In this document: one piece after another, positions 38,530 to 44,246 of the stretch
How positions within the stretch are numbered: position 1 is the first letter of the stretch
Layout of the letters: the number at the start of each line of letters is the position of its first letter
Assembly: GCF_003751225.1 (NCBI RefSeq)
Contig: NZ_RJKE01000001.1
Coordinates: 8,122,001-8,186,000 of the forward strand
Direction: 5' to 3'
Source: Actinocorallia herbida
Lineage (GTDB): Bacteria > Actinomycetota > Actinomycetes > Streptosporangiales > Streptosporangiaceae
Length of the DNA stretch: 64,000 nt
The notes under the pieces: model-generated
What the model was told of the DNA's origin: nothing
Databases searched by the model: none
What the model saw: only the letters and a program-made list of their open reading frames with translations
Made by a program: the position numbers and the translations under genes

Positions 38530-39516
38530 ATGCGGCGACGCCTGGCGGCGATGGTCTCGGTGACGGCACTGGCGCTGACCGGAGGCACGGCGAACGCGAA
38601 TCCCGGCGATGACCCGGTGCGGTCCGCGCCCTCCGCCGGAGACTGCTTCCGCCCCGCGGTCGACCTGCCCGTGCCCGCGCGGCCCGCCAGACCCGCGCTG
38701 GACACCTCGCTGCGCCCCCGCGACACCGTCGACCCGACCCCGGCGCAGGTCCGCGAGATGCTCGCCGATCTCGCCCTCCGCGCGCCCTTCCGGCGGCCCG
38801 ACCGGCCCAACCGGCCCGCGGCCGCGCGGATCACCGTACCCGTCGCGTTCCACGTCCTCGCGCCCGACGGCACCGCCACCGGACGGCCGACCGCGGCCAC
38901 CATCAACGCCCAGATCCGCATCCTCAACGACGCCTACGGCGGCGTGCGCGGCGGCGTCGACACCGGCTTCCGGTTCCGGCTGGCCTCCACCGACACCACG
39001 GTCAACGCCGCCTGGTTCCGCGATCCGATAGGGCATGAGACCGCCTACAAGCCCCAGCTGCGCAAGGGCGGCACGGGCACCCTCAACCTGTACAGCGCCG
39101 ACGTCGGCCAGGCCGTCCTCGGCTACGCGACGTTCCCCCAGACCGTCAAGGACAAGCCGGCCCTCGACGGGGTCGTCATCGACCATCGCAGCATGCCGCG
39201 CGGCACCTACGCCAACTACGACCTGGGGTTCACCGCGGTCCATGAGGTCGGCCACTGGCTCGGCCTGTTCCACACGTTCGAGAACGGCTGCAACGCGCCC
39301 GGCGACGGGGTCGCCGACACGCCCGACCAGGCGACGGCGTCCGACGGGTGCCCGGAAGGCAAGGACACCTGCACGACGCCCGGCGCCGACCCCGTGCACA
39401 ACTACATGGACTACAGCTACGACGCCTGCATGAAGGAGTTCACCCGGGGCCAGGCCGACCGGCTGCGGCGCAGCTGGACCGCCTACCGCAACGGCGGCGC
39501 GGGCTCGCTGCGCTAG
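38530..39516 (+). CDS. Secreted zinc metalloprotease, M43 (pappalysin-like) family
   Basis: 328-residue protein with a signal peptide (residues 1-24, ending TANAN). After a propeptide-like segment the catalytic domain carries HEVGHWLGLFH (HExxHxxGxxH zinc site) and the Met-turn NYMDYSYDAC. Four nearby cysteines (NGCNAPGDG, SDGCPEGKDTCTT) probably form disulfides. Exported protease, substrate unknown. Convergent with the malic enzyme gene, 16 bp apart. Confidence 0.9.
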   Translation: MRRRLAAMVSVTALALTGGTANANPGDDPVRSAPSAGDCFRPAVDLPVPARPARPALDTSLRPRDTVDPTPAQVREMLADLALRAPFRRPDRPNRPAAARITVPVAFHVLAPDGTATGRPTAATINAQIRILNDAYGGVRGGVDTGFRFRLASTDTTVNAAWFRDPIGHETAYKPQLRKGGTGTLNLYSADVGQAVLGYATFPQTVKDKPALDGVVIDHRSMPRGTYANYDLGFTAVHEVGHWLGLFHTFENGCNAPGDGVADTPDQATASDGCPEGKDTCTTPGADPVHNYMDYSYDACMKEFTRGQADRLRRSWTAYRNGGAGSLR

Positions 39517-41968: not shown

Positions 41969-42197
41969 GGGTCCATCCTGCCTCATGCGGGCGGGAACCC
42001 GAACGCGTCGGCGCGGCCCGGTCACACAGCGGACATTGCGGCGAGTGACCAAAAGGCTGCTGACAGCGATACCAAAGGACCGTTATAGTTCCGCTGTCGA
42101 TGCGTGTTGCGACGGCAAAAGGCCCGGCCGCCTGGGGATGACGCCGGAATGCCGCCAGCCCGTCACGCGTCGCCGAGAACTCAGGGGGAAACAGAAA

Positions 42198-42980
42198 GTG
42201 ATCGTGGAGACATCCGCGATCGTGGCGAAGGGACTGGGCGTCCGCCGTGGGGGACGGTGGGTGCTGCGGCCTGTCTCCTTCGGCCTGCCGGAAGGCGCGG
42301 TCGGGATCGCCGGCCCCGCCGGCTCCGGCACGTCGGACCTGCTCGCCACGCTCGCGACACTGCGCCGGCCGCACACCGGCCGCCTTGAGGTGCTGGGCCA
42401 CGACTCCGGCACCCGGGGCGGCCTGCGGCTTCTGCGCTCCCGAATCGGGTTCCTGCCCGCCGAGTCCCCCTGGGCCGCCAGTTCCACGGTCGGCGATTTC
42501 GTCGCCTACGCGGCCTACTACCAGCGCCGGCCCGCGACGTCCGTCGCGAAGGTCATCGACGGCCTCGACCTGCGGGACGTGGCCACCTGGCCGCTCAGCT
42601 CCCTGCCTCCCGACCTCCGGGTGCGCGCCGGGCTCGCCGCGGCGTGCGTGCACGAGCCCGACATCGCCTTCCTCGACCAGCCCTTCGCGGGCCTCTCCGA
42701 CACTCAGGCCGCCGAACTCGGCCCCCTGATCGCCGCGGCCGCGCCGACCGTGGTCGTCACCGCCGCCGAGACCGGCCCGCTCAGCCCCTGGTGCGACAGC
42801 GTCCTCGTGCTGCACCACTGCCGCCTCACCCCCGCGGACCGCGCCCCGGCCCCCTCGCTCTCCCGTTCCCCCTCTCCCGTGGAACCGGGGGCGGCGGCGA
42901 GGGCCGCGGCACAGGGCGGCGCTCCGCGCCGGCCCCTTCCCGGCGCCGTCCGCGGCCAGGCCCCTTTGCCCATCGGCTGA
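42198..42980 (+). CDS. Degenerate ABC-transporter ATPase-like protein
   Basis: 260-residue protein with the overall layout of an ABC ATPase, but the catalytic motifs are altered: Walker A is GPAGSGTS (Thr45 in place of Lys), the Q-loop Gln is Ala88, the signature is LSSLP, Walker B ends LDQP (Gln161 for the catalytic Glu), and the H-loop His is missing (VVTAAETG). ATP hydrolysis is thus unlikely. Start GTG 42198 with AGGGGGAA upstream. A Pro/Ala-rich tail ends the protein, and a membrane protein gene begins 6 bp later, so they probably act together as a non-canonical complex. Confidence 0.75.
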   Translation: MIVETSAIVAKGLGVRRGGRWVLRPVSFGLPEGAVGIAGPAGSGTSDLLATLATLRRPHTGRLEVLGHDSGTRGGLRLLRSRIGFLPAESPWAASSTVGDFVAYAAYYQRRPATSVAKVIDGLDLRDVATWPLSSLPPDLRVRAGLAAACVHEPDIAFLDQPFAGLSDTQAAELGPLIAAAAPTVVVTAAETGPLSPWCDSVLVLHHCRLTPADRAPAPSLSRSPSPVEPGAAARAAAQGGAPRRPLPGAVRGQAPLPIG

Positions 42981-42986
42981 CGCGGC

Positions 42987-44246
42987 GTGAGTGACCTGGC
43001 TCGGGCGGTACGGCCCGCACGGATCGCACGCGTGGCCCGGGTGATGCGGGTCGACGCGCAGCGCTGGTCGCTGCTCGTCGCGCTGCCCGCGCTCGCCGGG
43101 ATCGGCGCGGTCGCGGGCTGGCGGTCGCTGCCGGTCGGCCTGCACGACTGGGACGGCACGGTCCGCGCGGCCGAGGCCTCGGTGCGGTGGGCGGGGCCGG
43201 CCGCCGCCGCCCTGGCCGCCTGGACGGGGGTGCGCGGCAGGCGGCTGGACTACCTGCGCTCGCTCGCCGCCCGCTCCCCGGCCGCCGCGCCCCTGCACGA
43301 CCTGGCCCTGCTGCTGGTCGTCGCCCTCGCCGCGCACCTGTGCGGCTGGGCACTGGTGGCGGGCCGACTGCTCGGCGACGGGGGCTTCGGCGCCGCGCAG
43401 GCCGCGGCGGTCGCCGCGGGCGCCGGCGCCACCGGGCTGCTCGTCGTCGCCGGATACCTGGTGGGGCGGATCTGGCCGCGCGCGGCCGCGGTGCCCGCGG
43501 TGGCCGCCGCGGCCTGGGCGTGGTGCGCGTTCCGGCCCGCCCCGGCGTGGGCGCTGCTGCCACCGGCCAGACTGGGCCCCGTCGATCCGTTCGAGGACCT
43601 GCTCGTCGGGGTCCCTGCCGCGCAGGCGGGCTGGGCCGCGGGCCTGGCCCTGGCCCTGGTGCTCGCCTACACCGCGTGGCTCACCCGCCGGTCCCGGCTG
43701 CTGGGCCCGGTCGGGCTCGCGCTCGGCGCGGTGCTCGGCTGCACCGCCTGGCTGGAGGCCGCGGGCGGGGTCGTCGCCGAGCCCGCGCAGCCCAGTTACG
43801 TCTGCCGGGAGTGGCCGGTGAGCGTGTGCGTGCACCCGGCGCTGCGCGAGGCCCTGCCGACGCTCGGCGCGGCGATCGCCCCGCTGGCGACCCGGCTGGC
43901 GGGAACCCCTGGGGCGATCAAGCGGATGGAGCAGATCCCGGGCGGCGAGCCGGTCCGGATCGGGCGCGGGACCGTCGGCTTCCACCTCGCCGACCTCTCC
44001 CCCGGCTACGAGCGCCGGGTGGTGCGCGAGCTCGGCGCGGCGCTCGGCGGCTGCCGCACGGGTCCGGGCTCCGCCGCCTCGGCGGGCTACCAGGCCCAGG
44101 TGGTGTCCTGGCTGCTGGACGAGCCGATGCCCGTCCGGCCCGTCACCCCGTTCGGGCACTGGGCCGAGGGACAGCGGCGCGAGTGGTTCGCCCGCAACTA
44201 CCGCTTCTTCCGCGCCTGCGAGCTGGGCCGCGCCCACTTCATGTGA
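42987..44246 (+). CDS. Multi-pass membrane protein paired with the pseudo-ABC ATPase
   Basis: 419-residue protein beginning at GTG 42987. About six hydrophobic helices (roughly residues 27-45, 68-82, 104-127, 140-160, 165-185, 212-262) are followed by a soluble C-terminal domain with YVCREWPVSVCVHPALREALPTLG and a Cys (GGCRTGPG) suited to extracellular disulfides. It looks like an ABC-2 type membrane subunit, but I do not recognise a named family. The close spacing to the ATPase-like gene suggests one operon and one complex. Confidence 0.7.
   Translation: MSDLARAVRPARIARVARVMRVDAQRWSLLVALPALAGIGAVAGWRSLPVGLHDWDGTVRAAEASVRWAGPAAAALAAWTGVRGRRLDYLRSLAARSPAAAPLHDLALLLVVALAAHLCGWALVAGRLLGDGGFGAAQAAAVAAGAGATGLLVVAGYLVGRIWPRAAAVPAVAAAAWAWCAFRPAPAWALLPPARLGPVDPFEDLLVGVPAAQAGWAAGLALALVLAYTAWLTRRSRLLGPVGLALGAVLGCTAWLEAAGGVVAEPAQPSYVCREWPVSVCVHPALREALPTLGAAIAPLATRLAGTPGAIKRMEQIPGGEPVRIGRGTVGFHLADLSPGYERRVVRELGAALGGCRTGPGSAASAGYQAQVVSWLLDEPMPVRPVTPFGHWAEGQRREWFARNYRFFRACELGRAHFM

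Follow-up and report, generated by a model that had tools for sequence, protein, structure and literature searches.

The window, i.e. the whole stretch of 64,000 nucleotides that was analyzed, corresponds to positions 8122001-8186000 of a single-contig genome of 9.8 Mb. Two adjacent genes on its forward strand encode a degenerate ABC ATPase, referred to here as the pseudo-NBD, and a membrane protein (Table 1). The reading frame of the pseudo-NBD starts with GTG at 42198 and is open up to the TGA stop codon at 42978-42980, whereas the gene for the membrane protein starts with GTG at 42987, leaving 6 bp between the two. The ribosome-binding site, the 6-bp spacing, and the intact gene described in an initial annotation made from the sequence were all recovered, the first of them as AGGGGGA 8 nt upstream of the start codon. 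Elsewhere in the window, positions 38530-39516 encode a probable secreted protein with a pappalysin-like peptidase M43 domain (Pfam, 3.8e-15).

Table 1. Features of the pseudo-NBD/membrane protein locus (window coordinates)
Feature	Position	Strand	Evidence
Shine-Dalgarno-like AGGGGGA, 8 nt 5' of the pseudo-NBD GTG	42183..42189	+	read from sequence
Degenerate ABC ATPase (pseudo-NBD), 260 aa	42198..42980	+	translation, PF00005, AlphaFold core, Foldseek
Former Walker A GPAGSGTSD, Lys45 replaced by Thr	42312..42338	+	Lys in 45/56 orthologues, Arg in 9, Thr in 2
Former Q-loop Gln, now Ala88	42459..42461	+	Gln in 0/56 orthologues
Former ABC signature, L136-P-P-D-L140	42603..42617	+	LPx[DE] in 56/56 orthologues; LSGG in 8/8 distant operons
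Walker B IAFLDQ, Asp160 retained, catalytic Glu161 replaced by Gln	42663..42680	+	Asp in 55/56 orthologues
Former H-loop His, now Ala189	42762..42764	+	His in 0/56 orthologues and in 8/8 distant operons
Membrane protein, 419 aa, divergent relative of DUF7224-type ABC permeases	42987..44246	+	orthologues, distant relatives
Basic loop, residues 82-101, candidate NBD-coupling loop	43230..43289	+	strongest conservation excess in ABC-bearing relatives
C-terminal domain, residues 265-419, predicted outside, four invariant Cys	43779..44243	+	invariant columns; DUF7224 in L138

PF00005 (ABC_tran) matched residues 23-164 of the pseudo-NBD with 45.7 bits (cut-off 25). An AlphaFold model derived from a 17-row alignment had a mean pLDDT of at least 90 in each ten-residue block of residues 11-210, and the NBDs of MlaF, CbiO, and LptB were among its best 50 Foldseek matches. 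As modeled, the core is a complete NBD fold; from about residue 213 the protein continues as a C-terminal tail rich in Pro, Ala, and Arg. A PADLOC match to mad3 (1.6e-5, residues 141-205) was attributed to the general resemblance among ABC proteins. The residues that mark an active ABC ATPase, i.e. the Walker A Lys, an LSGGQ-type signature, the Q-loop Gln, the catalytic Glu, and the H-loop His, were all absent from the protein. The replacements listed in the initial annotation (Thr45, Ala88, Gln161, and a missing H-loop His) were found again, with Ala at residue 189. The signature is lost, as it had stated, but its placement at LSSLP was three residues too early; LSGGQ aligns with L136-P-P-D-L140. 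According to the sections of PMC7756269 that deal with the ABC mechanism, the signature, Q-loop, and H-loop touch the gamma-phosphate, and the ATP site is assembled from both NBDs. On this established mechanism, a Pro together with an acidic residue within the signature should block formation of the ATP sandwich. The sequence thus points to a pseudo-NBD that would not hydrolyze ATP.

As a control, 47 other ABC stretches were drawn from the 86 other ABC matches in the window genome. The Walker A Lys was present in every aligned Walker A segment. Outside Walker A, deviations of one or two motifs at a time do occur: the Q-loop Gln was missing from several rows, some rows (which we take to be daunorubicin-exporter-like) carried Gln instead of the H-loop His, L208 had Asp for the catalytic Glu, and L005, L183, L197, and L201 were devoid of an LSGG-type signature. 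Because the other motifs deviate one or two at a time in the control and Walker A does not, it is the loss of Walker A and the combination of all five changes that are exceptional in the window protein. The single deviations reside in presumably working ABC proteins of the same genome, and this counts against the interpretation favored below. One of the control loci, L005 (G000:C1:9697571-9701278), also consists of neighboring ABC and membrane genes with a partly degenerate ABC, in which Walker A and Walker B are kept, the signature reads LPRGQR, and SGG occupies the position of the H-loop His.

For the membrane protein, scans with Pfam, NCBIfam, and PADLOC gave nothing usable (no Pfam match at E up to 1), and no PDB structure matched it by sequence at E up to 1. 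Its hydropathy profile has seven peaks, and together with the charge of the loops this suggests seven membrane segments with the N terminus inside and the C-terminal Cys domain outside. This is one helix more than the six initially assigned, and the outer Cys-containing domain proposed at the same time agrees with the prediction. An AlphaFold model from a two-row alignment was poor (pLDDT 48.5), so that topology and loop positions are derived from hydropathy and charge. Cys273, Cys281, Cys356, and Cys411 were invariant in all 25 aligned rows (24 of them distinct, as the alignment, A1, includes both L021 and L039), and the same holds for Trp276, Pro277, His283, and Pro284; the rows come from both clades, with and without an ABC gene. 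Residues 281-290 form the most conserved block among the ABC-bearing permease rows. The outer C-terminal domain is likely the working part of the membrane protein.

The membrane protein was chosen as anchor for the orthologue search because it is specific. Orthologues were present in 187 of 297 family genomes (E up to 1e-5), and the ABC genes of 56 of these (36 distinct genomes plus 20 further ones) were examined. The aligned core was free of stop codons in all 56. Not one of them had the Q-loop Gln, an LSGGQ-type signature, or the H-loop His, and LPx[DE] took the place of the signature throughout (56/56). The Walker A position was occupied by Lys in 45, by Arg in 9, and by Thr in 2 proteins. 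The Walker B Asp was retained in 55, followed by Glu in 30, Asp in 24, Gln in the window protein, and His in its nearest relative. Among the genera examined, the Walker A Lys was lost only in the genus of the window (3/3, the genome set holding just three genomes of this genus) and in genus g52 (8/8). A tree in which these two genera were held together was not rejected (p-AU 0.275), so that the Lys may have been lost once or twice. The motif losses are thus layered: three are common to all 56 orthologues, that of the Lys is confined to two genera, and one clade, described below, is devoid of the subunit. The initial annotation had considered the loss of all five motifs as the selected property, a view that does not extend to the orthologues: relatives with intact Walker A/B, which it had itself named as counter-evidence, are frequent with respect to the Walker A Lys (45/56) and the Walker B Glu (30/56). 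Since most orthologues keep the Lys and 30 keep the Glu, these proteins may bind ATP or hydrolyze it weakly, which counts against the interpretation favored below. The ABC and permease genes overlapped by 8 nt in 26 of the 33 distinct relatives measured; within the genus of the window the overlap is lost (gaps of 6, 6, and 77 nt). Some pseudo-NBDs reach up to 409 aa owing to long Pro/Ala/Arg-rich C-terminal tails or insertions (L105, L106, L107, and L019), and in L013, L017, L106, and L107 tens of residues are inserted right after Walker B, at the position of the D-loop.

Selection on the ABC core (residues 1-212) was estimated by the Nei-Gojobori method. The pair of the window and G075, both without the Lys, yielded a dN/dS of 0.237, three overlapping Lys-less pairs of g52 yielded 0.134, 0.180, and 0.189, and eight Lys-retaining pairs ranged from 0.196 to 0.403, absolute values being rough because synonymous sites saturate in GC-rich DNA. 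Loss of the Lys was therefore not accompanied by visible relaxation in near pairs. The values of 0.13-0.24 resemble those of neighboring genes in the window/G075 comparison, i.e. malic enzyme (0.157), the permease (0.174), the YbbN-like protein (0.215), the DUF4230-like protein (0.279), and DUF3817 (0.290). Two wider pairs within the genus (window/G016 and G075/G016) gave 0.552 and 0.589 for the ABC gene and 0.618 and 0.481 for the permease. These values reflect either saturated synonymous sites or looser constraint, and they count against the favored interpretation. Because the core is free of stop codons, dN/dS is low in near pairs, and the replaced LPx[DE] signature is invariant, we concluded that the gene is under selection and not simply decaying here, in line with the preference for selection over decay expressed at the outset.

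A set of thirty loci of more distant orthologues, with permease identities of about 34-40% (g4, g6, g33, g31, and others), formed a sister clade. In the stretches analyzed, the ABC gene was absent and the permease present in 29 of 29 testable loci. L096 (122 bp upstream) and L072 (contig ending 16 bp before the permease) were uninformative on this point; L096 was kept under the ABC-less label in the trees and the loop comparison, and L076 was excluded from the trees owing to a mis-set permease start. L021 and L039, being one contig, were counted once, and L102, L103, and L068 repeat genomes already counted. In 8 of 8 loci (L073, L076, L081, L084, L087, L092, L100, and L141), a divergently oriented MarR-type regulator gene adjoined the permease gene in the place of the ABC gene, L141 having a mutase-like gene upstream as well. 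Beyond the MarR gene, a subtilase-like gene followed in four of the seven loci other than L141. The neighborhood of L141 and L142 matched that of the window, L068, L102, and L103 on at least one side, the shared genes encoding DivIVA-like, epimerase, thiolase, and DUF4230-like proteins, the permease, a YbbN-like thioredoxin/TPR protein, and malic enzyme (names mostly read off the sequences; DUF3817 and thioredoxin/TPR from a Pfam scan). When 21 ABC-less genomes were searched as a whole, only generic ABC proteins were detected (best E 4e-30; 89 of the 106-364 first-look candidates scored in each), and positive controls in two genomes reached 8e-88 and 5e-77. In nearly all genomes this search scored a part of its candidates, a point against the favored interpretation. 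The DNA upstream of the permease was read in all of the 21 except G141 and G167, whose genera were covered by other members. In the permease tree, a single branch split 36 ABC-bearing from 29 ABC-less-labeled rows. Because the sister clade retains the membrane protein gene without the ABC gene, the ABC subunit is dispensable over longer times. Of the reading given in the initial annotation, selective retention of the gene stands, whereas neither loss of all five motifs nor presence of the gene extends across the relatives.

A profile of the membrane protein also retrieved distant relatives within and beyond the family. At 8 of 8 distant loci (L132-L139, of which L133-L135 are near-identical), an ABC gene lay directly upstream of the permease gene, and all eight ABC proteins were intact, with Walker A Lys, Q-loop Gln, LSGG, catalytic Glu, and H-loop His. 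When four of the distant permeases were scanned against Pfam, one (L138) scored DUF7224 at 2e-14 across its C-terminal domain, and the family profile A1 recovered the same protein at 8.5e-7 in a whole-genome search. A family search of 148 genomes yielded three DUF7224 proteins above the cut-off; A1 matched one of them (L144, 26.7 bits), and a profile widened with the distant relatives matched all three. A DUF7224 (PF23866) match was absent from the window permease (E up to 1), from the 25 aligned members (E up to 0.1), and from the window genome. No literature was found for DUF7224, and among the papers listed on degenerate or pseudo ABC ATPases, no title or abstract opening matched this pair. 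In the NBD tree, a long stem led to a single pseudo-NBD clade. A tree constrained to join this clade with the NBDs of the distant permeases was not rejected (p-AU 0.767), and as it scored above the free tree, the free search was non-exhaustive. Judging from the intact ABC proteins of the distant relatives and the profile similarity to DUF7224, the most likely ancestor of the pair is a standard ABC system of one ATPase and one permease. As the outgroup carries ABC partners, it is simpler to assume that the sister clade lost the gene.

The permeases of the two clades were compared by mean pairwise identity per column (36 ABC-bearing versus 29 ABC-less-labeled rows, 373 columns). The ABC-less permeases were more uniform overall (0.643 versus 0.549). 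Residues 82-101 were the 20-residue segment that most favored the ABC-bearing rows, with a difference of +0.217 (mean -0.092, s.d. 0.093), a trend already noticed, before this larger comparison, in a subset of 12 versus 12 rows. This basic loop lies between predicted helices 2 and 3, about where the coupling helix of an ABC exporter is expected, and the ABC-less consensus has a four-residue gap just past it. We infer from this conservation pattern that the pseudo-NBD may dock on loop 82-101 of the permease.

Taken together, the locus is probably a former exporter of the DUF7224 type; its ATPase would now serve as a non-hydrolyzing docking subunit, and its membrane protein would act independently of ATP hydrolysis. 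The ancestor would have been an ABC exporter with one ATPase gene and one permease whose outer C-terminal domain was DUF7224-like. On the way to a large part of the family, the ATPase would have lost its Q-loop Gln, its signature, and its H-loop His, so that two copies could not assemble the ATP sandwich required for transport. As a non-hydrolyzing subunit, it would have been retained, docked on cytoplasmic loop 82-101 and holding or regulating the permease. In most genera examined, the subunit may still bind nucleotide via the Walker A Lys; in the genus of the window and in g52, loss of the Lys as well would have left a purely structural subunit. An ATP-independent role of the membrane protein, which in the sister clade would use no ABC subunit, might consist in non-catalytic sensing, binding, or an envelope function. 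Against this interpretation, a partner NBD encoded elsewhere, for instance by one of the 86 other ABC matches, could restore one working site. As a more tentative extension, on which we are somewhat doubtful, an exporter lineage may have escaped from ATP altogether, giving an ATP-independent permease with an outer Cys domain that was accompanied first by a dead scaffold ATPase and then, in a whole clade, stood alone. If this were true, the living relatives would represent a natural series from a pump to a motor-free membrane protein.

Slow decay, in which the ABC gene is a vestige bound for deletion with translational coupling of the downstream permease as its sole role, would account for the layered motif losses and for the absence of the gene from the sister clade. 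The large variable insertions after Walker B, the variable tails in several rows, and the dN/dS values of 0.55-0.59 that two wider pairs within the window's genus gave are consistent with it, and the prevailing 8-nt overlap (26/33) would by itself select for an intact frame. Coupling requires only an open frame, yet core dN/dS is 0.13-0.24 in the near Lys-less pairs and the replaced signature is invariant (56/56); moreover, the genus of the window, in which the overlap has given way to gaps, still retains the gene in 3 of 3 genomes. We regard decay as unlikely. That the Lys-retaining proteins bind ATP or ADP without hydrolysis and signal the energy state, this ability having been lost secondarily in the window lineage, seems a little less likely again: it fits the conservation of the Walker A Lys (45/56) and Walker B Asp (55/56) but leaves the window gene, in which Lys and catalytic Glu are both gone, unexplained.

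The least probable alternative is an asymmetric transporter in the manner of Pdr5, composed of the pseudo-NBD and an intact NBD encoded elsewhere and hydrolyzing ATP at a single good site. There is a precedent in that the part of PMC7756269 concerned with Pdr5 describes a degenerate site with altered Walker A, Walker B, H-loop, and signature, and binding of ATP to the dead site would be in keeping with the Lys that 45 of 56 orthologues retain. The operon, however, comprises one NBD and one permease and holds no canonical partner NBD. Because one and the same polypeptide has lost both its cis motifs and its signature, the partner's own site would also have to face a dead signature. Furthermore, 11 of 56 orthologues lack the Lys, and the sister clade lacks the entire gene.

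The NBDs of MlaF, LptB, and CbiO, which are active ATPases, share the complete NBD fold with the window protein at 20-26% identity. SUR-type regulatory ABC proteins use ABC architecture for regulation and not for transport; SUR responds to nucleotide, whereas the window protein is devoid of the nucleotide-binding Lys, and the comparison is one of architecture. DUF7224 (PF23866) proteins with an ABC partner resemble the pair in the order of ABC and permease genes, in N-terminal membrane helices followed by a C-terminal Cys-containing domain, and in profile similarity. The relative L138 differs in that its ATPase is intact, unlike the presumably dead one of the window, whose permease in turn fails the DUF7224 profile. 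Degenerate ABC sites as such are already known; what the sequences suggest here is a stand-alone dead ABC subunit in a lineage of DUF7224-type exporters. Living relatives display one and the same subunit as intact, half-dead, fully dead, or absent next to related permeases, and this series renders testable what use an NBD has for its permease beyond hydrolysis and how a transporter becomes something else. At the degenerate site of Pdr5, as far as it is described in the relevant part of PMC7756269, the Walker A Lys, catalytic Glu, H-loop His, and signature are all replaced, just as these motifs are in the window protein. In Pdr5 a second, canonical site powers transport (PMC7756269, same part), whereas some relatives of the window permease lack an NBD altogether. 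A degenerate ABC site usually belongs to a pair that still works as a whole; in this operon there is a single ATPase, which appears dead on both faces and is nevertheless conserved.
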